From assembly GCF_020880415.1 (NCBI RefSeq), contig NZ_JAJIUJ010000038.1, positions 1 to 64,000 on the forward strand: a DNA stretch of 64,000 nucleotides, in the 5' to 3' direction. Below the pieces are notes generated by a model that saw only the letters and a list, made by a program, of their open reading frames with translations, had not been told where the DNA came from and ran no database searches. How positions within the stretch are numbered: the first letter of the stretch is position 1; each line of letters opens with the position of its first letter. This document shows, one piece after another, positions 13,390 through 55,727 of this stretch. The position numbers and the translations under genes were made by a program. The stretch comes from Xanthomonas euvesicatoria pv. euvesicatoria. GTDB taxonomy: Bacteria; Pseudomonadota; Gammaproteobacteria; Xanthomonadales; Xanthomonadaceae.

Positions 13390-13393
13390 GCCT

Positions 13394-27409: not shown

Positions 27410-28801
27410 TTAGGGATACATCTTCGCGCCCTTACGCAGCTTCTCTTTGAACTGGCCTTGCTGATACACCGGCAATTGAACGATCGGCTGATAGAGTAAT
27501 AGTGCTGCAAGTTGTCTTTGCATGACATTGCCAGAGGACTTATGGATGTAGTGGTCTTGCAGCACTGGCACGCTCTTAACCAATGAATGTCCCGTGAGCA
27601 AAGCAATGTCCTGAGGCGTGATGCCTGCCGCATGAAGTTCTGTGGCCAGGGTGTGGCGGAAACCATGGAAGCCGATGCCTTTGGCGAAGCCAAGATCTTT
27701 GAGATAGTCGCTGAATTGGTTCAAAAGCCCTTGGCTATACCGGCAGTTGCTCGCGCCGCTTTTCTTGTTCTTGCCAGCAGACAAGTGCGGGAAAAGTCTG
27801 GGATGGCCACAGGCCTTGATGTCGGCAACGAAGTCCAAGAAGCCGGCATTGATCACCTCAGGATGCAACGGAATTTTGCGGATTGCGCTCTTGCCTTTGA
27901 GGCGTTGGCGAGTCTGAGCACCGTTAGACTGGGCAAGATCATCGTCTGCTGTCATTCGGATAGCCATGCACCACTGACCGTGTTCCAAGATGATGTCGGC
28001 AACTTTGAGCTGCGCGACTTCATTGATACGTGCCCCCGTGTAAAGGCCTAAAATCGGCCCCCACCACCGATGAGGGAACTTAGACGCCCAGGCATTGAAG
28101 GTCGCAGGATCGAAGATCTTCTGAATATCACTGGACGACAAGAGCCTGGATGGTGTTGTGGTGTTGGTGAGGAGTGATGGCTTCTTGGGCTTGAACGCTG
28201 CCATCGGCGAGTGCGCAACAGCTTTTGTTTTGAGCAACGCATTGAAAAAGCTTGTGACCATCCGACGATGCAGTTCGGTCGTGGCGCTTGCGGGGCAGGG
28301 CACATTGAGTGCGGCCCCTTCGCCAATGATGTCTTCGGCACTCATCGACTCGAACCGGGGATTGCTGGTCAAGCCAGGCGGCGCCCAGCGCAAGACATCC
28401 CACATCTGGTGAATGTGTTGATGGTCAATCTGTGAGACCGGCACATCGCCACAGGTCAGACGTAAAATTTTGAGGGATCGGGCGGCGGAGTTGATGGTGG
28501 TGTCTTGGAGATCACGCCTCGCCATGTCTTTGAGGTAATCCGCGATCTCAACAGACAGCAGCCGGGCAGGTGATCCCGTGGGAAGTGCTTCTGGATAGCG
28601 TGATCTAGGGCGGCGAGCACGAGATGCACAGAAAGTTTGCCATGCACTTTGTAGCATTTCGCTCAATTGGATTGCGGCTTGTCGTCCGCGAACAGTAACG
28701 TCGTTAAACAGCGTTTTTCCGACTTGAATGGATTTGAAGTGAAGGTGTTCGCCATCATTGATGAGAGGGACAACGGGTGGTTGGTTTTGCTTTGGAGTCA
28801 T
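27410..28801 (-). CDS. Tyrosine recombinase/integrase (internal copy)
   Basis: 463 aa and apparently complete. Catalytic residues: Arg258 (TGARINEVAQL), His379/Arg382 (HGFRHTLATEL), His405 (TGHS) and Tyr418 (LQDHYIHKS). The N-terminal core-binding domain spans roughly residues 80-200. Related to, but distinct from, the right-end integrase and closer to the two relics. No attachment repeat could be found next to it by eye, so it marks a nested element whose boundaries have been lost. Confidence 0.9.
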   Translation of the reverse strand: MTPKQNQPPVVPLINDGEHLHFKSIQVGKTLFNDVTVRGRQAAIQLSEMLQSAWQTFCASRARRPRSRYPEALPTGSPARLLSVEIADYLKDMARRDLQDTTINSAARSLKILRLTCGDVPVSQIDHQHIHQMWDVLRWAPPGLTSNPRFESMSAEDIIGEGAALNVPCPASATTELHRRMVTSFFNALLKTKAVAHSPMAAFKPKKPSLLTNTTTPSRLLSSSDIQKIFDPATFNAWASKFPHRWWGPILGLYTGARINEVAQLKVADIILEHGQWCMAIRMTADDDLAQSNGAQTRQRLKGKSAIRKIPLHPEVINAGFLDFVADIKACGHPRLFPHLSAGKNKKSGASNCRYSQGLLNQFSDYLKDLGFAKGIGFHGFRHTLATELHAAGITPQDIALLTGHSLVKSVPVLQDHYIHKSSGNVMQRQLAALLLYQPIVQLPVYQQGQFKEKLRKGAKMYP

Positions 28802-31974: not shown

Positions 31975-33678
31975 ATGACCGGCAAGATCAAGCTCAGTGT
32001 CGCCACCGCGCTCTTGCTCTTCGCCCTCACAGCAGGGGTCTACCTTTCGGGTCAGTTGATCTTGATGCTGTTGAAGGTGGCCGGTCCCCTCACCGTCGGC
32101 ACCTACTGGTCTTACGTCAAAGCGCTCGACCTCCCGCGATACGCTCCTTATGCCACCAAGATCAAGCTGGCTGGCGCCCTCGGCTTCGGTGTGCCGCTGC
32201 TGGCCTGGATCGCATTGCTGATCCCGTTGTTCAAGCCAAGGGCGGCCGCCTTACACGGCGATGCGCGCTTTGCTTCTGGCAGTGATCTGGCCAAAAAGGA
32301 CATGCTCAAACCGTCGCCGACCGGCATCGTGGTCGGCAAGCACGGTGGCAAGTTGGTGCGCCTACCTGGGCAACAGTTTGTGATCCTGGCCGCGCCTACG
32401 CGCTCGGGCAAGGGGGTGGGCATCGTCATTCCCAATCTGCTCGACTACCAAGGCTCGGTGGTGGTCCTGGACATCAAGCAGGAAAACTTCGATCTGACCT
32501 CGGGCTGGCGCAAGAGCCAAGGCCAAGAGGTCTTTTTGTTCACCCCCTTTGCCGAAGACGGGCGCACCCACCGCTGGAACCCCCTGAGCTACATCTCACC
32601 CGATCCCGCCTTTCGCGTGTCGGACCTGATGAGTATCGCGGCCATGCTCTACCCAGATGGCTCCGACGCCCAGAAGTTCTGGGTGAGCCAAGCGCGCAAC
32701 GCCTTCATGGCGTTTACGCTCTATCTGTTCGATAGCTTGGACGATCAGATCAAGCGCAAGCACCCGAAAGGCACCTGGATGTTCCCAACGCTTGGGATGC
32801 TCTATCGCGTGTCGTCTGGCGATGGGAGCGACTTGAAGGGCTACCTCAAAAAGCTCTCGCAGCGCGACTTCCTGGGCCGCGATGCCAAGATGGCCTTTGA
32901 CAACCTGCTCTCGCAAGCGGAAGAGACGTTCGCCTCGATCATGGGCACGTTCAAAGAGCCGCTCAACCAGTTCATTAATCCAATCCTGGATGCGGCCACC
33001 AGCGGAAATGACTTCTTGCTCACCGATGTGCGCAAGAAGAAGATGAGCATCTACATTGGCATCCAGCCGAACAAGCTGGCGGAAAGCCGCCTGTTGATCA
33101 ACCTGCTGTTTAGTCAGCTCATCAACCTCAACACCAAAGAATTGCCGCAGAACAACCCGGCGCTCAAACACCAGTGCTTGCTGCTGATGGACGAATTCAC
33201 GTCCATCGGCCGAGTCGACATCATTGCAAGCGCGGTGAGCTACATGGCCGGCTACAACATCCGCTTGCTGCCGATCATCCAGAGTATGGCGCAGCTGGAC
33301 GCGACCTATGGCAAGGATGTCTCGCGCACCATCATCACCAACCATGCCTTGCAAATCGTCTACGCCCCGCGCGAGCAGCAAGACGCCAACGACTACTCGG
33401 ACATGCTCGGCTACACCACGGTGCGCAAGAAGAACAAGTCGCACACCAGTGGCAAGCAAAGCAGTGTGTCCTACTCCGAAACCGAGCAACGCCGCGCATT
33501 GATGCTGCCGCAGGAGCTGAAGGCGATGGGCTTTGACAAGGAGGTCTTCCTCTACGAAGGCATCCCAAGCCCGGTGCTCTGCGAGAAGATCAAGTATTAC
33601 GAAGATACCTACTTCACCAAACGGCTGCTTCCAAAAGCCGAGTTGAAGAAATTATCTGCCGCCGTCTCGGGCTCATGA
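31975..33678 (+). CDS. VirD4/TraG-type type IV coupling protein
   Basis: 567 aa, the usual length for Xanthomonas VirD4. N-terminal membrane helices at about residues 8-30 and 60-83. Walker A APTRSGKGVG is at about residue 139, Walker B CLLLMDEFTS at about 402. It is the ATPase that hands relaxase-DNA or effector substrates to a T4SS channel in the inner membrane. No VirB genes are present here, so it must use a resident channel. In Xanthomonas, VirD4 also recognises XVIPCD tails of antibacterial effectors, one of which is encoded 0.5 kb downstream. Confidence 0.9.
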   Translation: MTGKIKLSVATALLLFALTAGVYLSGQLILMLLKVAGPLTVGTYWSYVKALDLPRYAPYATKIKLAGALGFGVPLLAWIALLIPLFKPRAAALHGDARFASGSDLAKKDMLKPSPTGIVVGKHGGKLVRLPGQQFVILAAPTRSGKGVGIVIPNLLDYQGSVVVLDIKQENFDLTSGWRKSQGQEVFLFTPFAEDGRTHRWNPLSYISPDPAFRVSDLMSIAAMLYPDGSDAQKFWVSQARNAFMAFTLYLFDSLDDQIKRKHPKGTWMFPTLGMLYRVSSGDGSDLKGYLKKLSQRDFLGRDAKMAFDNLLSQAEETFASIMGTFKEPLNQFINPILDAATSGNDFLLTDVRKKKMSIYIGIQPNKLAESRLLINLLFSQLINLNTKELPQNNPALKHQCLLLMDEFTSIGRVDIIASAVSYMAGYNIRLLPIIQSMAQLDATYGKDVSRTIITNHALQIVYAPREQQDANDYSDMLGYTTVRKKNKSHTSGKQSSVSYSETEQRRALMLPQELKAMGFDKEVFLYEGIPSPVLCEKIKYYEDTYFTKRLLPKAELKKLSAAVSGS

Positions 33679-33724
33679 AATTAGCTCTTGACGAAAAATT
33701 CCAAGCCATTGCCGGGAAATTAAA

Positions 33725-34180
33725 ATGCCATTTGTAAATGAATTTATTCCTGAGCCAGATGTTGTCAAATACAACCTAGAAGCGATCGACAGAGACTTCG
33801 TGGTCGGTGGCACCAATGCGAGAGACTGGACAATTGATCGTGATCGCGACATGTATTTGCGCAATGTCGCAAACGGTGGCGGCACCGAAATCGAGGTCAG
33901 AAATCAGACAAAGTTCTCCTTCTATTGGCGTGGAGAGCTTCTAACGCTGAGATTGGATTTGGTCGACGGTGGAGGCGCGCGAGGTCAGCCCGGCTGGTCC
34001 CATTGGAGACTGATGTGGATCAATGGTGGAGAGGGACTGCCTGAGCATCTCAAGGCCGACAAGGAGCAATTCATAGCTGACCTCAAAGAAGCCTTGCTTG
34101 CATACAAGGATTTCGGCGTCCATTCCAGGAACACGGACTACCACATCGTTTTTGAAGTCGATGAGGGGTGCTTGGTGTGA
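33725..34180 (+). CDS. Small cytosolic protein, candidate effector immunity
   Basis: 151 aa, no signal peptide. Beta-rich, acidic, with several Trp (FSFYWRGELLTLRLDL, WSHWRLMWINGG). Its stop overlaps the GTG start of the giant effector gene as GTGA, so the two are translationally coupled. This small-gene-plus-toxin pairing fits an immunity or chaperone role. If immunity, the toxin acts in the cytosol, because no export signal is present. Function is inferred from position only. Confidence 0.6.
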   Translation: MPFVNEFIPEPDVVKYNLEAIDRDFVVGGTNARDWTIDRDRDMYLRNVANGGGTEIEVRNQTKFSFYWRGELLTLRLDLVDGGGARGQPGWSHWRLMWINGGEGLPEHLKADKEQFIADLKEALLAYKDFGVHSRNTDYHIVFEVDEGCLV

Positions 34181-37100
34181 ATGGCTCGATATCTGCCCAG
34201 GACGCAATCGATAGAATTCGTCAGAACCCTGGCGATTACCAAACACCAGAATCGCTGCGGTCGCTGGCCGCGCAGGTGGACGCAAATGCCTCAGGCAAGG
34301 TCACTGTTCTTTATAGTGGCCCGGCAGCGAAGGACATCTGGTCGACTGATGTCATTGGATCGATGATCGAATCTGGCGAAGACATCCGGGTTATCGATAA
34401 AAGTCAGGCATCGAAGTTTCTGAATTCCCGTGAGTTCTATACCGCGCTCGCCGACATCTATGACATTTCGCCTCGTGAGCTGATAGATGGGTCTCATCGG
34501 GGGCCTGCCACAGAGTGGCTTTACCACCCTACGCAAGGTCCTTGGGCAGATGCTTCGGGACGGTTTGCCGATGCAACCGTAGGTGAGGTTCATGCCATCG
34601 TGGGCGACGCTCAGCCAAGCCGTGTCTTTGGCGAAATTGAAGTGCCTCGCATTCTTGCCAATCCAAACGTCACCTCGATTGAGGGCCTTCCGCGTGAAGC
34701 GCTGGCCGGTGTGAAAGACCGGCTCGGTCAGCAAGCAGCCTTTGAGCTGATCGTGGCCCGTGCGCGTGAACACGAGGGCATGCTGCGCATTCCAGCCAGT
34801 GATGATGCGCTCCGCGAGAACAAAGTTCTGAGGCTCGACAACAGAGAGTATTTTCGCGGAACGGCCATTGAGGGAACATCAAAGGCGTTAGACCAGAGCA
34901 CGCTTCCGCTTAGTCAGCGCATGAAACCGCCAACCGAGCATGCCCAAGCGGGTCAGGAGCGCTGGGATGAGTGGCAGGGACGCAATATCCAAACCACGCC
35001 GGAACCTGAAATCCCAGGCTTGCGTCGCGCCGGGATGACGGCAGGGCTTGCGGGTTTGGGCGTTGCCGCCACTGCCTACGATGCGTCGCAAACTGGAGAG
35101 CGTGTTGGCACGCTGTTGGCACAAGACAACCTCACCGCTGCGCGCTCAGAAGCGTTGCACTTTGCTGCCCGAGGTGCGGGCGGCTGGGCGGGAGGTGCTG
35201 CTACCGCTGCCGTTGTTGGCACAACCGGTGCAGGCCCTGTCGCGTTGGTGGTGGCCGATGGTTATCTGTTCAGTGCTGCTGCCGACAAGGCTGTGACGCT
35301 CTGGGACAACCGCCAGATCTATATGCAAACCGACAAGCAGGGCGTGAGCTGGGAGTTCAACGGCAGCCAGTGGCTTCGCCAAGAAAAAGCCGACCTGCAA
35401 AACGATGGCGTGGATACGCCGCAGAAGCAGGGCATGTTCGCGCTGCCCGAAAAGGCGCGCGAGCTGAACTATCACGCCAGTAGCGAAGCGACCGAGCAGG
35501 CGCTGGGCAAGGTGCAACCCAGTAATCCCTATGTGCAACCATCCAGTGAGGCAGATGCAGCGCATCTTTACGCACGGGATTGGCGGCATGATCCGGCAAG
35601 TGGCCAGTGGTCACGGATGGTCGCCGACGACGTTGATCGGAACGATCGACCTGTCTGGACGGTGGATCCGGCAAGCCCCGAGCGCAGTGCTGCGTTGGAT
35701 CAGCAAGCAGCTCAGGTGGTGGACGCCAACATTGCACGTGGCCCAGCTGCGATTGCCGCGACCTATCAAGCTGCTTATCAGCGCAATGGTTGGGACGACT
35801 TTGGCCCTGTGCCAGCGGCCGTGCAAGCGGCCTTGAACCCGGATGCGTTGCAAGCATCGGACGGCAGGCAGTATCAGCGCGATACGCAAGGTCAGTGGCG
35901 GCATGATGGTGTTGCTGCCGAAGGCAATGTCCCGTTAGAACTCAATGCAACGCGTGAACGCTTGCAGCCGGCCTTGGAGCAGCATGCGCAGGCAATGGCA
36001 CAGATGCCCGCGCGGCAAACGCCAACCGCGCAGCAACAAGACCAGGCCAATACCGAGGCGACCTATGCCGCTTATGGCGTTGCGCCCAATGCTCAGACCG
36101 CTGGAGCGATCCAGCTTGCGGTGCAAAAGACCCGTGAGGCAAACGGGATTGATGCAGCGACCAGTTCTTTGGCGTTGGAGCGTGATGCGACCGGTCAATA
36201 CTCGGTGGACAGTCCCATCCAGCATTTGAGCCGTGACGCCGATGGTGTGGTGCGTGTTGCGGCAACCACCAGCACCGCCGACATCCATCAGGCACTCGGC
36301 GAGGTGCAGTCACTTCGGCAGGAGCAACCGCCTTCGGCCGGCGCACCAGAGCTGCGCATTGACGCGCAATCGCCCCAAGAGCGCGATGCCTACGAGCAAG
36401 CGTTGCGGGAGACCAATCGGCAGGGTGTTTCCACGCAAGAAGCGCAACAGGTCGCAAGCTTCGCCGCAACGACGGTCACCGCTGCGCGGGTAGACGAAAC
36501 CCAAGCGCCTCAGGCAGCCATTGACGTGCAGCGGGATCGAGACGTTGCACGCACACCCGACGCGCCTGCCGTTGCGGAGACGGCAACGCCTACTCCGGTC
36601 GTGATGCCTACATCCACCAACGCGCCTTCGCCAGAAGACGTGCGCCCGGTCGCCAAGCCGGCCGAACCGAAGCCCGAACCTGTCCCGCAACGCGAACCCC
36701 AAGAAACCCGAACATCTGAGGTTGCCGCACCCTCGACAGCCGGCGCATTCCAACCGACGGCAGAGGCAGTGGCGCCAGCCTTTGCAAGCGCATCTGCGCC
36801 GAGCGTCGGATCGCCCTCATCAGCTCTCACGTTCCCAAGCCAGGCAACTGTTCCAACGCCGCCGTCATCGCATGAGGTGGAAGGGCTGCGTCTTGGCGAC
36901 CGAGGGCAGGAGGTCGAGTTCTTGCAATATCGCTTGCAGCAGGTTGATGCCCGGGGTCCGAACGGCGAGGCCGTGCCGCAAGACGGGCACTATGGTCCAG
37001 AGACCGAACATGCCGTGAGGCAGTTCCAGCAGGACCAAGGTTTGCCTGCAACGGGCATCGCCGGCCAAGACCTGGATGCGGCGTTGTCCCAAGCACAACA

Positions 37101-37848
37101 CGCGCGCCGAGAAGCCTTGAAACCCACAGCGCCGGCATTGGCAAATGCGGCGGTGGAGCAGGGCGGTGAGCAGCAAGCGCAAGGAGTTGCACCACAGAAC
37201 GAAGCGCCATCGGCTGTTCCATTGCAGGCAACGCAGCCAGAGGTTGCGCAAGCGACATTGCCGGCAACGCCAACGCAGATCGAAGTGCCTGCACAGATCG
37301 TCTTGCCTGAGCGCACGACCTCCTCCTATGTGTCATCGCCTGGCTTCGGTGGGGCTGGCGGGCGTTCAAACCCAGGTGTGAACGATGAGGACCGGGTCGA
37401 GCAAGCGAGACCCCCCCAAGATGTCGCTCAGCAGGCGTTTCCCTCTGATCATCGGGATTACGCGTTGTTCTCGGCCATCCAGGCACAACTTCCGAGGGGC
37501 ACATCTGATGAGAAGACGGCCGAATTGCTCTATGCCGTCAAAGAGTCAGGGATCGAGCGCGCGGATCAACTCCGGAAAGTGACCATCCAAGATGATGTCG
37601 CCTTTGTCTTTGGCAAAACCCCCGGCTTTCACTCGGAAACCTCCCTCAACACGCCATCGCCTGGCATCAATGAAACCTTGCAGAAGGCAGAGGCGCTGGA
37701 TCAGCAACGGACGCAGGAGATGGCGCAATTCCAGCGCGAGCGCGAAGAAATCGACAAGAACCCAATAGGCCCCGTAATGACGCTCGCTGCCCACTCTCAG
37801 CAGCAAATGATGTCAGACGCGTCCAGTGGTGATGGGGGCGGTGGCTGA
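34177..37848 (+). CDS. Large XVIPCD-like type IV secretion effector (candidate)
   Basis: 1223 aa from GTG 34177 (GAGGGG eight bases upstream). Residues 1-200: globular unknown domain (VTVLYSGPAAKDIW..., FYTALADIYDISPREL), the probable toxin. Residues about 280-365: Gly/Ala-rich hydrophobic segments. Residues about 450-880: repetitive, Ala/Gln-rich with duplicated W-x-H-D-type units. Residues about 900-975: peptidoglycan-binding domain 1 (LRLGDRGQEVEFLQYRL, DGHYGPETEHAVRQFQ). From about 1088: HRDYALFSAIQAQLP, TAELLYAVKESGIERADQL, VAFVFGKTPG and a Gln-rich end, the layout of the XVIPCD secretion tail. Likely delivered by a Xanthomonas T4SS into competitor bacteria. Confidence 0.75.
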   Translation: MNGSISAQDAIDRIRQNPGDYQTPESLRSLAAQVDANASGKVTVLYSGPAAKDIWSTDVIGSMIESGEDIRVIDKSQASKFLNSREFYTALADIYDISPRELIDGSHRGPATEWLYHPTQGPWADASGRFADATVGEVHAIVGDAQPSRVFGEIEVPRILANPNVTSIEGLPREALAGVKDRLGQQAAFELIVARAREHEGMLRIPASDDALRENKVLRLDNREYFRGTAIEGTSKALDQSTLPLSQRMKPPTEHAQAGQERWDEWQGRNIQTTPEPEIPGLRRAGMTAGLAGLGVAATAYDASQTGERVGTLLAQDNLTAARSEALHFAARGAGGWAGGAATAAVVGTTGAGPVALVVADGYLFSAAADKAVTLWDNRQIYMQTDKQGVSWEFNGSQWLRQEKADLQNDGVDTPQKQGMFALPEKARELNYHASSEATEQALGKVQPSNPYVQPSSEADAAHLYARDWRHDPASGQWSRMVADDVDRNDRPVWTVDPASPERSAALDQQAAQVVDANIARGPAAIAATYQAAYQRNGWDDFGPVPAAVQAALNPDALQASDGRQYQRDTQGQWRHDGVAAEGNVPLELNATRERLQPALEQHAQAMAQMPARQTPTAQQQDQANTEATYAAYGVAPNAQTAGAIQLAVQKTREANGIDAATSSLALERDATGQYSVDSPIQHLSRDADGVVRVAATTSTADIHQALGEVQSLRQEQPPSAGAPELRIDAQSPQERDAYEQALRETNRQGVSTQEAQQVASFAATTVTAARVDETQAPQAAIDVQRDRDVARTPDAPAVAETATPTPVVMPTSTNAPSPEDVRPVAKPAEPKPEPVPQREPQETRTSEVAAPSTAGAFQPTAEAVAPAFASASAPSVGSPSSALTFPSQATVPTPPSSHEVEGLRLGDRGQEVEFLQYRLQQVDARGPNGEAVPQDGHYGPETEHAVRQFQQDQGLPATGIAGQDLDAALSQAQHARREALKPTAPALANAAVEQGGEQQAQGVAPQNEAPSAVPLQATQPEVAQATLPATPTQIEVPAQIVLPERTTSSYVSSPGFGGAGGRSNPGVNDEDRVEQARPPQDVAQQAFPSDHRDYALFSAIQAQLPRGTSDEKTAELLYAVKESGIERADQLRKVTIQDDVAFVFGKTPGFHSETSLNTPSPGINETLQKAEALDQQRTQEMAQFQREREEIDKNPIGPVMTLAAHSQQQMMSDASSGDGGGG

Positions 37849-38151: not shown

Positions 38152-39450
38152 ATGGATAGCGAATTAGCTCAGACGGAAGACGCAGAACAACCGCTCTTTC
38201 GCAAGCGAAAGGGGCCGGAGACAACTTCCACACTCGGCGACCTAAAAGATGCGTTTCCCTCGTCCATCCGGATCTGGATCGGCTGTGGCTGTGTGCTTTT
38301 CCTCTTGCTGGCCACGTTTGTTCTGACCGCGTCCTACTCCAAGCGGGAGCACGTGTCGGGCCAGATCATTTCCACGCATGGGCGAGTGGACATCCGCAGT
38401 GGAACGCCTGGCCTCATCCTGTCGACGACATTGAAGCCAAATGCGTTGGTCAAGAAAGGCCAAGTGCTTGCGGAGCTGTCAGCCGACATCACCGATGAAG
38501 CGGGTCGCTCTTTGTCCGATGAGACGATCAAGCGTGCGCTCACCCGATCAGAAGAACTGACCAAGGAGCAATTGCAAACGCATGACTTTTCCGGCCAGCG
38601 CGAGCGGGAACTGACGCGTCAAGTCGAAGAAACGAGCGGTGCGATGCAGGAAGTCGCTCGCAAGATCTCAATCTTGGAAAAGAAATACGCCAAGAACAAA
38701 GAACTGTTGAAGACCATTGAGCCGCTGCTTGCTGAGAAGTATGTGTCCAAATACACCTACCTCACCTACGAAAATGCCCTCTTGGATGCAGAGGCGGAGA
38801 TTCAGGATGCCCGCGCGCAGCAGTCCACACTTCGCAATCAACGTGCCGCATTGCTGGGTGAGATCACCGAGATAAAGACAACGGCCAGCAGGCAAGCAAG
38901 TGAAATCGAGCGCGAGAAGTCCACGATCGAAGATCAAGTGGCCAGAGCCAAGTCTGACCGTCTGCAAACCATCACCTCACCCTTGAGCGGCAGTGTTGCA
39001 GCAATCTTTGCATCACAAGGTCAGCGCATTGGCACCGACTCGATCATCGCGTCCATCACCCCAAGCGAGTCGGTGTTCGAAGCTGAAATTCTTATTCCTT
39101 CCAGGGCCATCGGACATGTGAATGTCGGCACCGAGGTGCTGCTCAACATCGCCGCATTCCCGAAAGCAAAGTATGGCGCCATCCAGGGGCGCATCGCATC
39201 GCTGTCGACGCAAACGAGTCCGCTCGGTGAGTTGGAGCGCCGCTATGGTCGCCAGTCGCCCACTGAGCCGGTTTACACCGCCAAGGTGGCCTTGCCTTAT
39301 CAGACCATCGGAGTTGCCCAAGAAGCGAAGTCCTTCCTGCCGGGGATGGAAGTGGACGCGGAACTGATCTTGGAGGGCCGAAAGATCTGGGAGTGGATGT
39401 TTGACCCCTTCCAAACCATGGGATCACGCTTGACGGGTGAAAAGCGATGA
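38152..39450 (+). CDS. HlyD-family periplasmic adaptor of a peptide/protein exporter
   Basis: 432 aa. Starts MDSELAQTEDAEQPLFRKR. A single membrane helix (about residues 45-65) follows a cytosolic N-terminus. The periplasmic part has a lipoyl half-motif (SGQIISTHGRVDIRS, PGLILSTTLKPNALVKKGQVLAEL), a long coiled-coil hairpin (residues 120-280) and the returning half (TITSPLSGSVAAIFASQGQRI), as in CvaA/HlyD. It would link the ABC exporter to a TolC-type channel. Its stop overlaps the exporter start (ATGA). Confidence 0.9.
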   Translation: MDSELAQTEDAEQPLFRKRKGPETTSTLGDLKDAFPSSIRIWIGCGCVLFLLLATFVLTASYSKREHVSGQIISTHGRVDIRSGTPGLILSTTLKPNALVKKGQVLAELSADITDEAGRSLSDETIKRALTRSEELTKEQLQTHDFSGQRERELTRQVEETSGAMQEVARKISILEKKYAKNKELLKTIEPLLAEKYVSKYTYLTYENALLDAEAEIQDARAQQSTLRNQRAALLGEITEIKTTASRQASEIEREKSTIEDQVARAKSDRLQTITSPLSGSVAAIFASQGQRIGTDSIIASITPSESVFEAEILIPSRAIGHVNVGTEVLLNIAAFPKAKYGAIQGRIASLSTQTSPLGELERRYGRQSPTEPVYTAKVALPYQTIGVAQEAKSFLPGMEVDAELILEGRKIWEWMFDPFQTMGSRLTGEKR

Positions 39451-41663
39451 AGGACGTCTTGACACCATCCGCCAATGGCGCTGCCGAGACGGATCGCTCT
39501 GCTGAACCAAGCCTGGTGTTCTCCTCGAAGCGCCGTGTGCCGCATATCCGTCAGACGGAGTCGAGCGAGTGCGGCCTGGCCTGCATTGCGATGCTGCTCT
39601 CCTACTACGGCCATGAAACGAGCCTCGGGGAGCTTCGCAACCGCTTTACGGTGTCGACCAGCGGGGCAACGCTCGCTTCGCTGATTGAAATCGCTGATGC
39701 CAACGGGCTTACAACGCGCCCGCTTCGCTTGGAGCTTTACGAACTGCCCAAGCTGTCGTTGCCTTGCATGGTCCACCTGCACCACGGGCACTTTGTCGTG
39801 TTGACGGCTGTGCGGGGCGGTCATGTGCATATCAGCGATCCCGCAACCGGCGTCAAGAAGATCAAGCTCGACGAGTTCGATGAGGTCTTTAGCGGCATTG
39901 CGTTGGAGGCGCATCCCGGCCCGGCCTTCAAGAAGATTAAGAGTGTGCCGTCGGTATCGCTTCGCGACCTGGCAGGCTCGCTTCGGTCCCTGGTGCCCGC
40001 ATTTTGGGTCGTGGGCATCTTGGCGCTGTTCCTGGAAGGCTGCGCGCTGATTGCACCGCAATACCTGAGACTGACCATGGATCAGGTGCTCAGCGTCAAG
40101 GACGATGGCCTGGTCACCACATTGGCGATCGGCTTTTCGATCGTGCTCTTGGTCCAACTCGTCCTGACCGTTGCCAGGAAGTGGACCTTGCTGTGGATCT
40201 CTTCCACCACCGGCTTGCGGTGGAGCAGTAACTTGTTCCGTCACCTGGTGTCGCTACCCCAGTCGTATTTCGTGAAGCGGCATACCGGGGACATTTCAAG
40301 TCGCTTCCAGTCGATCTACTCCATCCAGCAGTCGCTCACGACGAAGATGCTGGAAGCGGTCATCGATGGGGTGATGTCTTTCCTCATGTTGTTGCTCTTG
40401 ATGAGCTACGACGCGCCGCTTTCCTTTGCCTTGTTGGCTTTCACCATTGCCTATGTGGGTTCGCGCTACGCTTACTACGCCAAGCTGAAAGAAGCCAACC
40501 TCGACCAGATCAACATCGATGCACGCCGGCAAAGCTTGCTCTACGAAACGGTCCGAAGCATCCAGCCCATCAAGTTGTTCAACAAGTCAGCACTTTGGGC
40601 GTCGCGCTTTACGAACTACAGCGCGAAAGCGACCAACGCGACAATCGGGGCCGAGCGGATCCGCATCGGGTTCGATTCTGTCCAGCTCCTCATCCAGGGC
40701 CTGTGCCGCATCTTTGTGATCTGGGAAGGCACCCGGTTGGTGCTCAGTGGGGATATGACGCTCGGGGTGCTGACGGTCTTTTTGATCTACGCGACGCAGT
40801 TCAGCCAACGCAGCATCAACCTGGCCGACTACTTGATGCAGCTCCGGCTGCTTCGTTTGCACACAGAGCGCATTTCAGACATCACCCACAGCGAGCCTGA
40901 GTCGTTTTTGCATGGTAACGGCGCGCTGGAGGATGCTGCGCCCGCTATTGCCATTGCTAACGGCTACTTCCGCTACTCATCCACCGACAAGTGGATCATG
41001 AGCGCCTTGCAGCTCAGGGCCCCCGCAGGCCAAGTGATTGCGATTGTCGGGAACTCAGGCGTGGGTAAGACCACACTCATCCGCGTTCTGGCGGGGCTTG
41101 AAGATCTTCAAGTCGGGGACTTCTTAGTCAATGGAGAGGATCTGCGCAAGGTCGGTAAGTCGAGCTACCGGAGCAAAGTCAGCATCGTCATGCAAGGAGA
41201 CAATCTGTTGTCAGGAACGTTGTCGGAAAACATCTCTATGTTCGATGAGCACATTGACCAAGAGCGCCTGGTGCAGGCTGCAAAATTGGCGTGTATCCAC
41301 GACGATATCCAGCGCATGCCAATGGGCTTCAACACCAGAGTTGGCGACTTGGGAAACACGCTGTCAGGTGGTCAGAAACAACGGATCTTCTTGGCCAGAG
41401 CCTTCTACAGGCGCACTAAGTTGTTGTTGATGGATGAGCCAACGACTGGGGTTGATGAGCAGATGGGCATACAGCTGATGAAGAACATCAAGAGCATCGG
41501 CGCGACTACAGTCATTGTGACGCACGACAAGAACATTTCTCGGATGTGCGATATGCACTATCTCTTTGTGGGCGGGATCCTAAGGCCTTTGATCAAAGAA
41601 CAGCCTAGCAAATTTGAACAGGACGAGGCCGGGGAAACGGCTGAGAAGTCCAGTCTACAATGA
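39447..41663 (+). CDS. Peptidase C39-containing ABC exporter (CvaB type)
   Basis: 738 aa. N-terminal C39 protease: Gln36, Cys42 (QTESSECGLAC), His115 (HHGHFVVL) and Asp131 (SDPATG). Six membrane helices lie over about residues 175-450. Nucleotide-binding domain: Walker A GNSGVGKTT at about 533, signature LSGGQKQR at about 637, Walker B LLLMDEP at about 660. These exporters cut double-glycine-type leaders and secrete the mature protein. Translationally coupled to the adaptor. The leader-bearing substrate lies 107 bp downstream. Confidence 0.93.
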   Translation: MKDVLTPSANGAAETDRSAEPSLVFSSKRRVPHIRQTESSECGLACIAMLLSYYGHETSLGELRNRFTVSTSGATLASLIEIADANGLTTRPLRLELYELPKLSLPCMVHLHHGHFVVLTAVRGGHVHISDPATGVKKIKLDEFDEVFSGIALEAHPGPAFKKIKSVPSVSLRDLAGSLRSLVPAFWVVGILALFLEGCALIAPQYLRLTMDQVLSVKDDGLVTTLAIGFSIVLLVQLVLTVARKWTLLWISSTTGLRWSSNLFRHLVSLPQSYFVKRHTGDISSRFQSIYSIQQSLTTKMLEAVIDGVMSFLMLLLLMSYDAPLSFALLAFTIAYVGSRYAYYAKLKEANLDQINIDARRQSLLYETVRSIQPIKLFNKSALWASRFTNYSAKATNATIGAERIRIGFDSVQLLIQGLCRIFVIWEGTRLVLSGDMTLGVLTVFLIYATQFSQRSINLADYLMQLRLLRLHTERISDITHSEPESFLHGNGALEDAAPAIAIANGYFRYSSTDKWIMSALQLRAPAGQVIAIVGNSGVGKTTLIRVLAGLEDLQVGDFLVNGEDLRKVGKSSYRSKVSIVMQGDNLLSGTLSENISMFDEHIDQERLVQAAKLACIHDDIQRMPMGFNTRVGDLGNTLSGGQKQRIFLARAFYRRTKLLLMDEPTTGVDEQMGIQLMKNIKSIGATTVIVTHDKNISRMCDMHYLFVGGILRPLIKEQPSKFEQDEAGETAEKSSLQ

Positions 41664-41708
41664 GGAGTTACAACGCTTATCAAAATAAGTTCAAAGGAAA
41701 AAGGCGAA

Positions 41709-41771
41709 ATGGCACATTCAATTAAAAAAAATATCAAGAAAACAGTCTACACACAGGATGGAGCGCTGTAA
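41709..41771 (+). CDS. 20-codon micro-ORF coupled to the leader-protein gene
   Basis: ATG 41709 follows AAAGGCGAA. The peptide is MAHSIKKNIKKTVYTQDGAL, Lys-rich at the start. Its stop overlaps the next start as TAATG, so ribosomes ending here could re-initiate on the metallopeptidase gene. It has no double-glycine leader and is probably a translational leader rather than a secreted product. Confidence 0.4.
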   Translation: MAHSIKKNIKKTVYTQDGAL

Positions 41772-42517
41772 TGAGAGAATTGACAAACGAAGAGCTGTTC
41801 CTAGTGGCAGGTGCAGCAGCCGCTGCGGATGTTGATCCAAGCGAGCCCCCTACTGAGATTCCACCAATTGTGGTTAACCCGCCTACAAATCCACCTCCGA
41901 GTCCGCCTCCGACTATTCCTCCTTCACCGCCAGTTGAGCAGCCCGGGCCAATCACCCCTCCGGGTGGTGGTGGTGGTGCACCCACACCTTTGCCGCCTCT
42001 CGTGAGTGGGCTCGGTGCGGGTGCGGACGCGTATCTGAATAAAAGCGAAGACGTGAAGAGTTTGCTTTCAAAATATATTTCGGGCGGTGCGGACGTCGAA
42101 TTTAAAGATCTTGGAACGGTAAAGGGCGAGGTTGATGCAGGCAACATCTATCTAGATGACGACCTCAAAGGAACCACGCTTCAAGCTGCAACTGTACTGA
42201 GTCATGAGCTTTATCATGTCTATAACCCCGTGAATTACGGCACCCAAAACCCGACTCAAGAGCAATATGTCAACGCATGGCTCAATAACGAAGCCGGCTC
42301 AGTCATGTTCGAGATGAATTTTGTCAAACAAGTTGAGGCAACTAGTATTACGCAGTATCCAGCTGATCTAACTAGCATCTATAACCAAATTGGCACGACG
42401 CTAACAGCAGAGCAGGCGAACGCTAAGATAGCTGAGTGGTATGGTAATCAGGACCATGGTGGTGGGCAAACTGTGAAGCAATACTACGAATCTGTTTATA
42501 ATTCAAATAAAAAGTAG
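41771..42517 (+). CDS. Secreted HExxH metallopeptidase with double-glycine-type leader (bacteriocin candidate)
   Basis: 248 aa. Residues 1-15 are a C39 leader, MRELTNEELFLVAGA (L at -12, E-L, V and G-A before the cut). Residues about 20-75 are a Pro/Gly-rich linker. The C-terminal domain has SHELYHVYNP, HExxH at 145-149, and Glu174 in NNEAGSVMFE as possible third zinc ligand, followed by helices. Small secreted zinc proteases with such anchors occur as polymorphic-toxin tips. It sits directly after the C39 exporter and before exported candidate immunity proteins. Inferred: a processed, exported protease toxin, far larger than classical microcins. Confidence 0.82.
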   Translation: MRELTNEELFLVAGAAAAADVDPSEPPTEIPPIVVNPPTNPPPSPPPTIPPSPPVEQPGPITPPGGGGGAPTPLPPLVSGLGAGADAYLNKSEDVKSLLSKYISGGADVEFKDLGTVKGEVDAGNIYLDDDLKGTTLQAATVLSHELYHVYNPVNYGTQNPTQEQYVNAWLNNEAGSVMFEMNFVKQVEATSITQYPADLTSIYNQIGTTLTAEQANAKIAEWYGNQDHGGGQTVKQYYESVYNSNKK

Positions 42518-42525
42518 GTGAAATT

Positions 42526-43104
42526 ATGAGATTGTGCATTAACAGACCTCTTCCATTAGCAATTTTAACTGCTGTGTTTTTAATGCCCACACTAGCATTT
42601 GGGGGTGCCTTGGGCACCGATAAAAAAATCAGCGACCTGATATCGTTGTTCAGCTCTGGCGTTGAGGTCGAGCAGTCTCAAGTCGAGAGGTTGATCGGAA
42701 CTGATACGGCTGATGTCGAAATTACTAGGGATGAACCCCTTCGTCGCCACTACCGGGTGGCATTAGATGACCCGAAATCCCAGGTGACTGCGCTGAGTTT
42801 CGGAACCAATCGAAATGACGAAGGTTCCCAAGTGTGGAACATAGCCGCGTTGACAATCGTTTCTTCTGATACTAAAGCCCCTGGGTGTGAAAAATACAGG
42901 GATATTGTGAAAAAATACGGGTTTGTGGAAGGGATTCGAGAGCCACGATCCGTTGTAAAAGGGGCAGCCTGGACGCAGCCGGCAACTTCAACTAAAGGTC
43001 CATACAAAATATTTGTTTCGACTACGGATGTTACATCGCCATGTGTTTCCGGATTGACTGTATCCAAAAAAGCAGCGGATGATTCTAGTTCTTCCGCCAA
43101 TTAA
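42526..43104 (+). CDS. Exported candidate immunity protein 1
   Basis: 192 aa, starting 8 bp after the metallopeptidase gene. Signal peptide (residues 1-26: PLPLAILTAVFLMPTLAFGG), so periplasmic. Mature protein is alpha/beta with two Cys (APGCEKYRD and TSPCVSG) that could pair. No enzyme motif. Position after an exported toxin and periplasmic location fit an immunity protein acting on a toxin that enters via the periplasm. No family recognised. Confidence 0.68.
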   Translation: MRLCINRPLPLAILTAVFLMPTLAFGGALGTDKKISDLISLFSSGVEVEQSQVERLIGTDTADVEITRDEPLRRHYRVALDDPKSQVTALSFGTNRNDEGSQVWNIAALTIVSSDTKAPGCEKYRDIVKKYGFVEGIREPRSVVKGAAWTQPATSTKGPYKIFVSTTDVTSPCVSGLTVSKKAADDSSSSAN

Positions 43105-43252
43105 AATGGAAATCATCTTCACCCTTACGTTGGCCAAGCCTTTTGATTGGTCGACGCAAGGGTGATGTGCAAGGCGCTGATAGCCATTAAATGGGGAAAA
43201 AAGCCCTCAGAAATCTTTCATTATATTTGAGTGATAGGGTGTGACTATACTG

Positions 43253-43698
43253 ATGAAGAGGGCGTTGGCTTTTCTAATCATCCCAATTTTTATTGTCACG
43301 GCAATGGTTGTGCATGCTGAAAATAGGAATTCTCAATTGAATTTGGGTGACGTTATCGGTAAATTTTATGATCCAGCTAAGCCGGTCAACTATGAAACTT
43401 TCCGTGATATCGGCCTCAGTGAATTTCGGCAAGTAAGTTCAAGCCGGTCATTGAACATTGCTTTTCGTTCAGCCGCGTTGAAGACAAAGGATCAATATGG
43501 AGTCTCCTTCGTTGAGTTCAGGGTTCCACCTGAGCTCGACAAAGGAGTGAGCTTTGCGTATATGGAATTGACGCCGCGCCACTCGCCGATGCCGGCAAGG
43601 AGGTTTTCTACAAAACCGATCTTGGTGGAACGTCTGTGTATGTGAAAGCGAGCTCGAAGAGTGAGTGCTTGCTTGGGCTCACGAGGAGTCGAAACTAA
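43253..43698 (+). pseudogene. Exported candidate immunity protein 2, frameshifted
   Basis: Starts MKRALAFLIIPIFIVTAMVVHA, a signal peptide. The first frame reads well to FVEFRVPPELDKGVSFAY (about 43560), then turns Pro/Arg-rich and stops at 43645. The +1 frame continues sensibly as GIDAAPLADAGKEVFYKTDLGGTSVYVKASSKSECLLGL and stops at 43698. Removing one TA of TATATGG at about 43557 restores one 148-aa reading frame. The layout (signal, lone C-terminal Cys) parallels immunity candidate 1. Could be a real mutation or a sequencing error. Confidence 0.7.
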
Positions 43699-43847
43699 AC
43701 GGTTTGCTGGCGCTAGCCAATTAGGCATCTATCTAGTTGGCTAGCGCCGAGATGAGCAACCAACACGTTTGGCGTAAAAGGATGAGTTCAGGCAATACAT
43801 CGTCATAAGTAGCCGCTGTGGGCATTGGAGGCGACAGCGTGATGGCA

Positions 43848-45187: not shown

Positions 45188-45619
45188 TCAGCCATCTTTG
45201 CGAAGGGTGTAAGTCTTGGTTCCCAGGATAGCGCCCGTCCTATCTCGCACCAAGCGATGCGCTTGCTTGAAGTGAGGGCGCAAGCGGTCCCGGAGTGCTC
45301 TCGCCAGGCGTCGGTGATGCTCTGGCATAGCCACGAAATCCAGGATCCAGAGTTGATCACCTTCGTTCCAGTCGCTAATCGGTAAGAACGGGGGATCTTG
45401 CAGAACCAAATGACTGGCGGTTTCATGGGTTAGATATGCCCATAAGGCGTAGCCGGTCCAGACCCCATCTCCATCTTCGATCGTGACGAGCTGGCCTAGG
45501 CGAATCGCAGGCCATATCCACACGTAGGCAGCTGCGATACTGAACCTCTTGCGGTCAGTCTTGAACAGAAGTTGTATCGCCAGGCCAAGCGCCTGCGCAT
45601 CAACGGCATTAGGTTGCAT
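45188..45619 (-). CDS. HlyC/CyaC-type acyltransferase homologue
   Basis: 143 aa from ATG 45619, overlapping the end of the SelO-like gene by 11 bases. WPAIRLGQLVTIEDGDGVWTGYALWAYL and SDWNEGDQLWILDFVAM match the toxin-activating lysine-acyltransferase fold (LPAIRANQY... WLD in HlyC). The Asp of WILDF is kept, but the His that aligns with HlyC His23 is Arg here (KTDRKRFS), so catalysis must differ. MceI of microcin E492, a HlyC relative, attaches a siderophore to the toxin, a useful precedent. Function here is inference. Confidence 0.75.
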   Translation of the reverse strand: MQPNAVDAQALGLAIQLLFKTDRKRFSIAAAYVWIWPAIRLGQLVTIEDGDGVWTGYALWAYLTHETASHLVLQDPPFLPISDWNEGDQLWILDFVAMPEHHRRLARALRDRLRPHFKQAHRLVRDRTGAILGTKTYTLRKDG

Positions 45620-47423
45620 GGGTGTTGGTTGAGCTGAATTTCTGCGCGGCAACGGCAGCGTCCGGGAAGGTGAGCAGTGCGGCAGGAATTGTTGCACGCC
45701 CGTTCAAGCCTAGACCTACGAGGTAGCTAGTGGGTTCGCAGTCGACAAGCACGACGGTTCGATGGCCAGAATTGGTGATGCCGAGTTTCTCATCTGCGAC
45801 TTGGGCACCGAAGAGCAGTGTTCCCCCATGCACGCGTGGTCCCGACAGCTGGGCTGCATAAGCCATGCGGTGCGTATCAAAGAAATACAACGCGGTGGAC
45901 ACGTGATCGCTTGCGTAGCCTAGGACAAGCCAGTGTGGTGGTAAGCCTCTCCAAACCCGTCGCGAGACCGCGACCTCGGTTGCGATAAAGACCGAGACCC
46001 GCTCGGGTCCCGACGACCGATCGGCGAGGATCGACCGCACCAGCTTGATCGCGCGGCGCTTAGAGACGCGATAGGAAAGGCGTGGTCGTGGTCTCAGCCA
46101 GCGGTTGGCCGCACAAAGATGAAGATCTGAGTTCGGAAGTGCGCGCACGAACGCTGCGATCTCCTCGCCAATCTGAGACCCCCGGGTTGCTTTGCCTCTG
46201 AGGTGGTCAGAGAGCCAATCGTGGCGCTCGCCGTGCTTTGTGGGCTGATCGAACGCATAGTCAATGCGCTGTTGCTCGCGGTAGTAGCGCGCAATGAGCG
46301 CTTTGAAATGCAACGCCTCTGGGCTTGACTCAGGCAAGGCACACGCTTCTGCACAGTGATGGAGAAACGCAGCTTCCATGTGATGCTCGATCTGGATGAG
46401 CAGTTGATCGATGTTGGCGATTGTGTTGTCGAAGTGGGAATACTTGTTGAAGAAGTAGGCAAGCGATGGAAGCGAGTGGCGAACATCGCGCATCTCATTG
46501 CCGAAGAAATGACCATGTCCATCGGTGCCATGCTTCCAGCTGGGAACTGCGCGGAAGCCGCCGAAATCCAGGAACTGCGCGTTCAATGTGATGTTGTCGC
46601 TTGTCGGGCGCCCTGTCCAAAGGCGATGCGCGCGACTTGCGGCAATCTGCTCGGCAAGGCGGAGGTAGAGCTCAGACAAGTTAACGCCTAAGCCATTGGG
46701 ATTGCCCGCATCGAGCTGCGCGTGTTCGTCGGCAAAGTGGATGGCATCTTTGACCCGCAGGCTATCTTGAAATTGATCGCTGTTTGCGCTGCCTGATGTT
46801 CCGAAATACAGGCTGCGCTCGAAATGCGCCAAGCGAAGGAAAGCGGGCCGGATTAGAATGGCGCAACGTTCCGGTTCGTCTGCATCGGTGCGTGCCAGGG
46901 AGAAGCCGGCATCGATGATGGCAACGATGGGGACTGCCCCGTGGGGGAGCTCTGCGTTGAGGATCTCGCTGGCGACTGCCTCGCGAATGGCATCGTAAAG
47001 ATAGAGACAGCCATGGGAGTGTGACCAATCATGGGCCTCGGAGACCAATGGCGTGGGGCCGGTTCCTTTGGCGATGAGCATGCCATCGGAGCCACAGCGG
47101 CCACTCCCTCCGTGGATTGCCCCACCGCTCCCACCATAGCGATCAGCGCCCAGTGTCTGGCGTCCGAAGCTGCCGGCAACGCAGTGAGCTTCGAGAGAGG
47201 TCACGGCAAAGCGCTCAAGCAAGGACGCTGAAATGCTGGTCCGAGTGGGCTTGTCGTGGATGGCGATGCCCAAGTCATGAAACCAGCGCTCATTGAGCCA
47301 GAGCACGGAAGCATCTGGCAGCTTTCCCACTGGGAAGGGCACGAGCATCGAAGTGCTCACGCTGGCGAGGTTCAACAGGTTGGGGTCGTTCTTGTCATCC
47401 ATGTCCCAGTAGTCATTGGGCAT
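45609..47423 (-). CDS. SelO/YdiU-like pseudokinase protein
   Basis: 604 aa. Shares the SelO scheme: MLIAKGTGPTP with Lys119, AIREAVASEILNAELPHGAVPIVAI, ILIRPAFLRLAHFE, and the catalytic-loop-like TSDNITLNAQFLDFGGF (Asn277, Asp286). SelO proteins transfer AMP to protein Ser/Thr/Tyr; this is a divergent member, longer at the N-terminus with a Gly-rich GADRYGGSGGAIHGG. Overlaps the HlyC-like gene. Inferred: a protein-modifying enzyme of the neighbouring secreted-protein locus, possibly activating or conjugating with the HlyC-like partner. Confidence 0.7.
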   Translation of the reverse strand: MPNDYWDMDDKNDPNLLNLASVSTSMLVPFPVGKLPDASVLWLNERWFHDLGIAIHDKPTRTSISASLLERFAVTSLEAHCVAGSFGRQTLGADRYGGSGGAIHGGSGRCGSDGMLIAKGTGPTPLVSEAHDWSHSHGCLYLYDAIREAVASEILNAELPHGAVPIVAIIDAGFSLARTDADEPERCAILIRPAFLRLAHFERSLYFGTSGSANSDQFQDSLRVKDAIHFADEHAQLDAGNPNGLGVNLSELYLRLAEQIAASRAHRLWTGRPTSDNITLNAQFLDFGGFRAVPSWKHGTDGHGHFFGNEMRDVRHSLPSLAYFFNKYSHFDNTIANIDQLLIQIEHHMEAAFLHHCAEACALPESSPEALHFKALIARYYREQQRIDYAFDQPTKHGERHDWLSDHLRGKATRGSQIGEEIAAFVRALPNSDLHLCAANRWLRPRPRLSYRVSKRRAIKLVRSILADRSSGPERVSVFIATEVAVSRRVWRGLPPHWLVLGYASDHVSTALYFFDTHRMAYAAQLSGPRVHGGTLLFGAQVADEKLGITNSGHRTVVLVDCEPTSYLVGLGLNGRATIPAALLTFPDAAVAAQKFSSTNTHAT

Positions 47424-54076: not shown

Positions 54077-55603
54077 TTAATTCTTCCACCCTGTTGTTCT
54101 TGTTTTGTTCGTCCTCTTTTTGGCCGCTTGCTCTCGTCGTCGTTCCATGTGGCGAACCTGCTTGAACGCACGGTCAAATTGCCCTGGCGTGTAAGCGGGC
54201 AATGGAAGCGGAGGGCCAAACCGTTCAATGGCCGCAAAGCGAGCGGGGACAGAAGGTGGATCGACGTAGTGCTTCAAGCCTGGTGGAAGCGTCAACTCGT
54301 GGCCGGTGATTTGCTGCGAAATCGGAAGCGACACGCCGTGCTCATTGACCAACGAATTGGACAAGGTGTGTCGGAAGCAATGAAAGCTTTTGAGCCGTTG
54401 GGTCAGCCCTTGCTTGATCGCATAGGCCCGGAACTGATCCCCGAGCGCATCGCCATACCCGTTTTCGGCGTTGTAGGGCAAGTGCGGGAACAGTCGCTCA
54501 AAGCCTGCGCGCTTGACCTCATCCACATAGACCAAGAACCCAGCCTCAATCAGGGATGTGGGCAGGGGCACAAACCGGGAGGAGTGGGGGTTCTTCAAGC
54601 GCTGATCCGGCTTTGCTCCTCGGAAATGCACGCCCCAGAAGTCACCGACCTTGCCGATGTCTTCGACATAGAGCTGCGCGACTTCGTTGACCCGAGCACC
54701 GGTCGCAAATCCCAACAGCGTGCCAAACCATCGGTGCGGATACTTTTTGGCCCAAGACGTGAACGCATTCAGCTCGAGGAGCGCTTCGAGCTCAGCCTGG
54801 CTAAACGGATCACGGCTCGGCTCATCGGTGAGCGACTTGGCGCGATTGAGGATGGCTTTGTGAGGCGCCTTGCTAATCAGGTCTTCGTTCGCCAAGGAGT
54901 TGAAGAAGGACGCAATACGATCCCGATGCTTCTCTTTGGTGCGCATGCTCAGCAGTTCATGACCACCTTGCCGTGCCTTGCTCAGGATTTCGACAGGGGT
55001 GAGGCCGGCGAACACCGCCTTCTTGGTGGCGTTGCTCGGATAGTGCTCAAGCGCATCCAGGAACTGTCGGACGTCATCGGTCTTGTAGTCCTCGACCGGC
55101 TTGTCGCCGACAAGCGCCACAAACAGCCCCAGGCTGTGTTCGGTATCGAGCACGTTTTTCGCGCTTCGCCCCACACGCCGCATTTCACTGATGTGGATGG
55201 TGGCGCGCTCTGACAGCAGCGGTCCGGCGCTCTTCACAGAAGCCAGTTGCTGAAGAGGGAGGTGTTTCAGTGCGTCCAGCAGCCGAGCATGATCCCCAGC
55301 TCCGTTGGCAGAGAGCTCCACGCCACCGACCTTGATGGTGTAGGGGCGGGCTTCGTTCCCTTGCAACGCGGCCAGCGCCTGGCTCAGCAAATCGTCCCGC
55401 ATGCCCGCTCCCTGCCGCATCTGATCGAATGCTTCCGAGAGTGCCACAGCAGTTCGTGCCACGGCCAGACGGGCAGCATCACCAAGGGCCAAGCGAACGG
55501 GACGGACAAGGTAGCGTGAGCCGATAAGGGCTTGAAGGTCGGTCGGGACGAAAAAGCGCACATACAGCCCAGCAGGGCGGCGCAGAAAATAAGGCTTCGG
55601 CAC
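54077..55603 (-). CDS. Tyrosine integrase of the ssrA island
   Basis: 508 aa. Catalytic residues: Arg304 (TGARVNEVAQL), His408/Arg411 (HCFRHTLSNSL), His435 (ITGHEL) and Tyr446 (LKHYVDPPS). The N-terminal part is phage-integrase DUF6538-like (MPKPYFLRRPAGLYVRFFVP). It starts 108 bases from the tmRNA 3' end and on the same strand, so ssrA transcription may read into it, since no terminator lies between. It should recombine the two 17-bp repeats. The C-terminus is Lys/Arg-rich. Confidence 0.93.
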   Translation of the reverse strand: MPKPYFLRRPAGLYVRFFVPTDLQALIGSRYLVRPVRLALGDAARLAVARTAVALSEAFDQMRQGAGMRDDLLSQALAALQGNEARPYTIKVGGVELSANGAGDHARLLDALKHLPLQQLASVKSAGPLLSERATIHISEMRRVGRSAKNVLDTEHSLGLFVALVGDKPVEDYKTDDVRQFLDALEHYPSNATKKAVFAGLTPVEILSKARQGGHELLSMRTKEKHRDRIASFFNSLANEDLISKAPHKAILNRAKSLTDEPSRDPFSQAELEALLELNAFTSWAKKYPHRWFGTLLGFATGARVNEVAQLYVEDIGKVGDFWGVHFRGAKPDQRLKNPHSSRFVPLPTSLIEAGFLVYVDEVKRAGFERLFPHLPYNAENGYGDALGDQFRAYAIKQGLTQRLKSFHCFRHTLSNSLVNEHGVSLPISQQITGHELTLPPGLKHYVDPPSVPARFAAIERFGPPLPLPAYTPGQFDRAFKQVRHMERRREQAAKKRTNKTRTTGWKN

Positions 55604-55710: not shown

Positions 55711-55727
55711 TGGTGGAGGTGGGCGGA
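55711..55727. repeat. Right attachment site (tmRNA 3' end)
   Basis: The 17-bp direct repeat partner of 9164-9180. It is the T-arm and acceptor part of the tmRNA, ending in the encoded CCA, so integration preserves a complete ssrA. Confidence 0.9.

Follow-up and report, generated by a model that had tools for sequence, protein, structure and literature searches.

Among the described systems closest to the locus reported here are class II microcins and polymorphic toxins. Class II microcins and colicin V (CvaAB-TolC type) resemble it in a 15-residue leader ending in Gly-Ala, in a C39-type ATP-binding cassette (ABC) exporter paired with an HlyD protein, and in an adjacent immunity gene; microcins are by definition no larger than about 10 kDa (PMC10233263). 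Classical polymorphic toxins (Zhang et al. 2012, PMC3482391) resemble it in having a constant N-terminal trafficking part, a variable C-terminal toxin, an immunity gene and orphan immunity genes. Where passages on C39 were found in that account, it figures as a toxin peptidase (Tox-PL-C39) and as a row of the immunity table, not as a route of toxin export, and the terms 'double-glycine' and 'type I secretion' are absent from the first 300,000 of the 357,715 characters of its main text. The locus occupies positions 38152-43698, all on the forward strand, of a 64,000-nucleotide stretch (hereafter the window) of Xanthomonas euvesicatoria pv. euvesicatoria, contig NZ_JAJIUJ010000038.1 of assembly GCF_020880415.1 (121 contigs, 5.31 Mb). 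Its interchangeable toxin cassettes beside a microcin-type exporter suggest a modular bacterial weapon, and from comparison with related loci we consider it likely that it is a mobile polymorphic toxin-immunity system using the class II microcin export route, of which this copy would carry a zinc protease acting in the periplasm.

The operon begins with a gene for an HlyD-family periplasmic adaptor (38152-39450; Pfam HlyD_3 6.4e-09, HlyD_D23 2.4e-08; NCBIfam TIGR01843 at E 9.1e-36, under that model's cut-off), which overlaps by ATGA a gene for a 738-aa C39 peptidase/ABC exporter of the PCAT type (39447-41663; Peptidase_C39 4.9e-34, ABC_membrane 2.5e-33, ABC_tran 1.5e-28). The motif residues of the exporter are present (Q36, C42, HGHFVVL at 113, D131, Walker A, LSGGQ, Walker B), including the residues that we take to be catalytic. 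The exporter gene is followed after 107 bp by a gene for a 248-aa cargo protein (41771-42517), and this one after 8 bp by a gene for a 192-aa protein. The cargo protein starts with MRELTNEELFLVAGA, which has the length (15-18 aa) and the GG or GA ending of class II microcin leaders and is predicted to be cut after GA (residues 1-15, 41771-41815). Among 436 open reading frames of 120 aa or more from the window together with loci L084-L094, the window cargo was alone in having a strict form of the leader pattern at its N-terminus. The ATGA-coupled exporter pair, recognized earlier from the letters alone, is borne out by coordinates and Pfam domains, and the leader by its pattern. The same holds for what follows in the protein: after the 13 residues AAAADVDPSEPPT (residues 16-28, 41816-41854), a Pro/Gly linker (residues 29-77, 41855-42001) leads into the C-terminal domain (42002-42517), which carries HELYH at residues 145-149 (42203-42217) and a downstream Glu, E174 (42290-42292), that is, an HExxH-(24)-E arrangement. 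If cut after residue 15, the mature protein would have 233 aa and 24.6 kDa, well above the size limit of microcins. Base composition changes along the operon, from 54-61% GC over 38250-41499 to 42-47% over 42000-43749.

A search of 35 genomes of the genus found the cargo protein or its N-terminus in 15. Many of the matches are restricted to the N-terminal part (62-97% identity) and stop at about residue 70-124, beyond which the proteins differ. Five representatives have the leader, AAAADVDPSEPPT and the Pro/Gly linker in common and then diverge into five cargo types: type A, the HELYH metallopeptidase of the window; type B, an HELGH metallopeptidase, also present in the window genome on contig C30; type C, a muramidase of the pesticin type (Pfam Pesticin 5.9e-45); type D, an HELAH protein with a weak match to M91 (0.014); and type E, which is beta-rich as judged from its sequence. 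Since automatic clustering merged the A and B toxins, these two were separated by motif and alignment. A zinc-protease cassette had been proposed for the window by the sequence-only reading, and comparison supports that part; the polymorphic family around it, with its muramidase and two other HExxH cargoes, had been missed. Homologues without HExxH, named at the time as evidence against a protease, do occur as types C and E, and the nine A and B proteins keep both HExxH and the Glu, so that we read the variation as domain exchange and not as a sign of a non-enzymatic protein. The position of the gene within an exporter operon could also fit a processing enzyme, and no weapon, with other proteins exported by the producer as its substrates, but the same slot elsewhere carries a muramidase or other cargo and no further leader-bearing gene was noticed in the window operon, which leaves such a role hardly credible.

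The boundary of the exchange can be placed from DNA identities. When the window is set against L061, a type B locus, identity is 90-98% over the 3' half of the exporter gene, 91-92% from leader to linker and 31-44% after the linker, with a drop from 92% to 39% at the linker end. In other pairs of different type the drop comes slightly earlier, identity in the 150-bp linker bin being 63% (window and L003) and 65% (window and L065) before it falls to 32-47%. Controls within a type behave otherwise: the window and L055, both type A, keep 85-91% along the toxin domain, then 69-83% across the immunity gene, and two type C loci keep 85-99%; a distant type A pair (window and L056) has 56-71%, then 40-57%. 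A constant N-terminus with exchanged C-terminal domains, as in polymorphic toxins, is thus observed.

The gene downstream of the cargo changes with it. In the window it is the 192-aa gene (42526-43104), whose product has a signal-peptide-like start and would be the cognate immunity protein of type A (ImmA). To each cargo type corresponds one sequence cluster of downstream genes, in 5/5 intact cases for type A, 7/7 for B, 6/6 for C and 3/3 for D, and the resulting 21 pairs out of 21, a count that keeps near-duplicate loci and leaves out all three loci of type E (L069-L071), the type D copies that are interrupted or reduced to the leader (L056, L064) and the fragment L023/L027, compare with 17/21 in the best of 100,000 shuffles of the pairing. 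By position and type, the downstream gene is therefore toxin-specific. Immunity-type genes also occur without an adjacent matching toxin, at L055, L056, L065 and L067, that is, as orphans. The window holds a decayed case at 43241-43698, a broken type B immunity gene whose open frame (43241-43645, 134 aa) is 78% identical over 110 aa to the intact 179-aa type B protein; it has lost an internal stretch and changes frame, position 43698 being the end of its out-of-frame tail, and relatives hold intact copies. Of the two downstream genes with signal peptides first taken to encode periplasmic immunity proteins, comparison supports the 192-aa one only, the signal-peptide-like starts of partner proteins having been judged by eye, and the second is this remnant. 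The window genome also holds a parallel locus on contig C30 (L003) with a VirD4-like gene, an exporter, a type B toxin and its immunity gene. At L069 and L070 the type E gene is followed by a gene for an aspartyl protease with a signal-peptide-like start (PF13650 4.3e-12 for the L070 copy).

Both halves of the cargo protein are under constraint. Among 13 proteins of the five types, codons 1-28 compared between types show a pooled proportion of synonymous differences (pS) of 0.53 and of non-synonymous differences (pN) of 0.032, and codons 16-28 alone show pS 0.55 and pN 0.000. Because a leader alone would not demand a pN of 0.000 downstream of the predicted cut, the mature N-terminus probably does something in its own right, whether in entry, in attachment to the surface or in export. 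That this part is the conserved one and follows a class II microcin-like leader would also suit a conventional C39 bacteriocin whose activity resides in the N-terminal part as a peptide, with the protease domain as an inert passenger. The C-terminal domain, however, evolves under purifying selection (dN 0.032, dS 0.42, dN/dS about 0.08 between the window and L004), keeps HExxH and the Glu, and by its type predicts the partner gene, and for these reasons we find a passenger domain very improbable.

Exporters were compared across the genus. At E up to 1e-100, an exporter at least 95% identical to that of the window was found in 12/35 genomes, G012 and G030 having contig-end pieces only, and all 12 have cargo of types A-D; put the other way, it is present in 12 of the 13 genomes with such cargo and in none of the 22 others. 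Identity to the window exporter is 97-99% for full-length exporters at type B and C/D loci, 97% and 96% for the two full-length ones at type A loci, and 98% for one truncated exporter copy at a type B locus. Likeness among exporters thus does not track the type of cargo, which is what moving cassettes would lead one to expect.

The C-terminal domain of the window cargo is probably a zinc metallopeptidase of the HExxH-E kind. H145, E146, H149 and E174 are invariant across the 9/9 aligned A and B proteins, which gives the set characteristic of gluzincins, namely two His, a catalytic Glu and a conserved third Glu. Single-sequence searches of the type A protein against Pfam, NCBIfam, PHROG and PDB yielded no usable match, and Pfam matches bearing on a metallopeptidase fold were weak; with no Pfam match, the window protein does not belong to the Pesticin family, which a type C relative does match. 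A 16-member profile run against PDB sequences gave best matches at E 0.56-1.5, which are non-significant, and of these nine, six are named metallopeptidases and three are MJ1213 entries aligned at the HExxH, a suggestive though not significant hint of a metallopeptidase fold.

The domain is not confined to the microcin-type leader. A profile built from types A and B and one VgrG-borne member matched 36/395 genomes of the family (6/54 genera) and 3/369 of the class, the window genome included, and the matches include four further kinds of carrier. VgrG-type carriers of the type VI secretion system (T6SS) occur at L073 (VgrG matches in PDB) and L086 (DUF2345 2e-47, T6SS_Vgr 2.2e-32); carriers with the XVIPCD domain of the X-type type IV secretion system (X-T4SS) match PF20410 at 8.8e-25 to 2.2e-32; a VirB6/TrbL fusion matches PF04610 at 7.1e-21; and Sec-type carriers, with signal peptides assigned by eye, are found in the window's own genome. 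L104, L105 and L107 encode VirB6-like channel proteins of type IV secretion with a C-terminal HExxH domain (Pfam TrbL checked on L104 only), an architecture in which a channel component is fused to a toxin-like enzyme. An alignment of 30 sequences, from which L122 was left out (wrong frame), has as its only invariants an S, H-E-x-x-H, an E and Y-Y, with the Glu 23-25 residues past the second His; the S, the third Glu and the Tyr pair played no part in picking the rows. The labels 'XVIP' and 'VirB6' in this alignment were assigned by length, and Pfam found XVIPCD in 3/6 of the 'XVIP' rows scanned (the misses having 299-331 aa) and VirB6 in 1/1. XAC0096 of X. citri was considered as the known X-T4SS effector of this type and set aside, because its XVIPCD lies at 506-646, which does not fit the architecture of 374-385 aa found in this work.

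Both T6SS and X-T4SS are delivery routes for antibacterial toxins (PMC6759196, PMC6899460), which supports an antibacterial role for the shared domain here. Xanthomonas species are plant pathogens that secrete proteases, and the RaxABC type I secretion system of the genus is reported to be linked to a plant immune response; one could accordingly think of a virulence protease directed at the plant host through a type I system, with the downstream gene as a chaperone or an inhibitor during export. Such a protease would not be expected to share its leader with a Pesticin-family muramidase (type C), to belong to a set of four cargo types each with its own partner, to leave orphan partners that are retained, or to have its domain in common with VgrG and XVIPCD proteins, and we regard a plant target as improbable.

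The toxin-immunity reading implies the following course of events. The C39-ABC/HlyD pair would recognize the 15-residue leader and cleave it after Gly-Ala, and the whole enzyme would be exported through HlyD and a TolC-type outer-membrane channel, presumably encoded elsewhere. The constant mature N-terminus and the Pro/Gly linker may bring the enzyme to the envelope of a competitor, which it would enter by a receptor-type or a contact-type route. The C-terminal domain, here the HExxH-E zinc peptidase, would then act in the periplasm and kill the competitor, and the producer would be shielded by the secreted cognate immunity protein encoded directly downstream. Toxin-immunity cassettes would be exchanged at the linker, and former immunity genes would persist as orphans or remnants. 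Whether residues 1-77 are more generally a delivery tag (leader, import or anchoring motif, flexible linker) that makes small enzymes into diffusible or surface-held bacteriocins, traded among Xanthomonas elements, with enzymes shared with T6SS, X-T4SS, VirB6 and Sec carriers, we hold to be evenly balanced.

Several observations weigh against this reading. The 21 pairs are not 21 independent events, because many loci are near-duplicates. The type E proteins (L069, L070, L071) have no C39 exporter nearby, and genome G019 has type C and broken type D cargo with no near-identical exporter found; its C and D copies sit among identical repeated 335-aa frames that are insertion-sequence-like and match no Pfam family. 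No receptor-binding domain was recognized in the cargo, and searches with the type A domain against Pfam, NCBIfam and PHROG and, also by profile, against PDB gave no significant match. That all 30 aligned sequences keep HExxH is in part a consequence of how they were chosen, since the frames of the XVIP and VirB6 rows were picked by HExxH and cut back to the surroundings of HExGH. Common ancestry was tested for immunity types A and B together with those belonging to the other carriers, and no kinship among them was detected. Finally, the constant tag is confined to one genus in family-wide and class-wide searches with its N-terminal part: it was found in 16/395 genomes of the family, one of them outside the genus (G058, E 0.008) and read as chance, and in 4/369 of the class (E up to 0.01), of which the three other than the window's own genome (E 0.003-0.004) are likewise read as chance.

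Beyond these genome sets, a scan of genome contigs with the N-terminus gave at least four loci, and a scan of viral contigs (query A3) gave no matches. In plasmid records the toxin protein found no match, and none of the 2131 records with an exporter match reached 60% identity, the best 25 of the 2131 lying at or under about 41%; two related plasmid exporters adjoin candidate cargoes of 112 and 115 aa with leaders of the same kind.

The locus lies within what is probably an integrated mobile element of 46.6 kb (9164-55727), bounded by 17-bp exact direct repeats of the 3' end of ssrA (9164-9180 and 55711-55727), its probable ends. The tmRNA gene itself (ssrA, 55711-56107) is on the reverse strand, as is the integrase gene beside it (54077-55603; Phage_integrase 7.7e-09), and a second gene with the Pfam Phage_integrase domain lies at 27410-28801. 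Near one end of the element are a match to a Type II methyltransferase (13394-14479) and one to PDC-M26A (11383-13389), both from PADLOC, so that 11383-14479 possibly holds defence genes. Upstream of the operon (31975-37848) are a VirD4-like gene, a 151-aa gene and a gene for a 1226-aa protein with a peptidoglycan-binding domain, whose C-terminus looks XVIPCD-like by eye but does not match Pfam XVIPCD. Downstream (45609-47423), a 604-aa protein has a partial match to the SelO family (residues 116-297, 2.1e-08), and this protein recurs downstream of the cassettes in several relatives.

Among known antibacterial proteases, the C-terminal metallopeptidase of VgrG2b with its partner PA0261 (T6SS; Tpe/Tpi family) is a periplasmic gluzincin toxin with a periplasmic immunity protein (PMC6899460). 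Like the window domain it has HExxH and a distant Glu, and the periplasmic action proposed here is known there, but VgrG2b is carried by a spike and the window domain by a microcin leader. In VgrG2b the third ligand E983 (HExxH E936) lies 44 residues past the second His, as against 25 in the window. VgrG2b was absent among PDB profile matches at E up to 10, the chains themselves not having been directly compared, and with no profile match listed and ligand spacings of 25 and 44, membership in its family was considered and found unsupported. Some XVIPCD proteins of Xanthomonadaceae bear the same metallopeptidase domain as the window; effectors of the X-T4SS are recruited by their C-terminal XVIPCD and have no leader, unlike the window cargo. 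Pesticin is a bacteriocin muramidase, and type C cargo falls into its Pfam family but sits on a microcin leader.

A protease bacteriocin as such is not new, since Bcn-C of X. perforans has already been reported in the genus. It is a metalloprotease of 362 aa with a predicted signal peptide, encoded by a single open reading frame, and its protease activity is abolished in a type II secretion (xpsD) mutant (PMC7259588); the terms 'ABC transporter' and 'HlyD' are absent from the available text. Cdz of Caulobacter is exported by a type I system, has a presumed leader and acts in a contact-dependent manner (PMC5380434), but its 84-86-aa glycine-zipper proteins are not enzymes like the window cargo, and 'C39' is absent from the text available. 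The sequence-only reading had proposed a contact-independent toxin, but Cdz shows that type I cargo with a leader may also work through contact. Class II microcin candidates of Xanthomonas were screened in 2026 (PMC13174018), with no mention, in the accessible part, of a large cargo. We found no description of C39-exported polymorphic enzymes in the literature, mostly open-access, to which subscription papers and preprints may add.

If the proposed system holds, the C39/double-glycine microcin exporter would be added to the trafficking routes of polymorphic toxins, and the expectation that in Gram-negative bacteria the C39 route carries small peptides only would be broken. The 77-residue tag is then predicted to be enough to export and deliver a cargo, and the occurrence of a single protease domain on as many as five carrier kinds would lend itself to a natural comparison; were the more general delivery tag also real, enzymatic bacteriocins would form a class that stands between microcins and colicins. 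With the polymorphic toxins the locus has its modular architecture in common, and with the class II microcins its leader, exporter and neighbouring immunity gene; unlike microcins, its cargo is 24.6 kDa when mature, enzyme-like and modular, with a partner that varies with the cargo.

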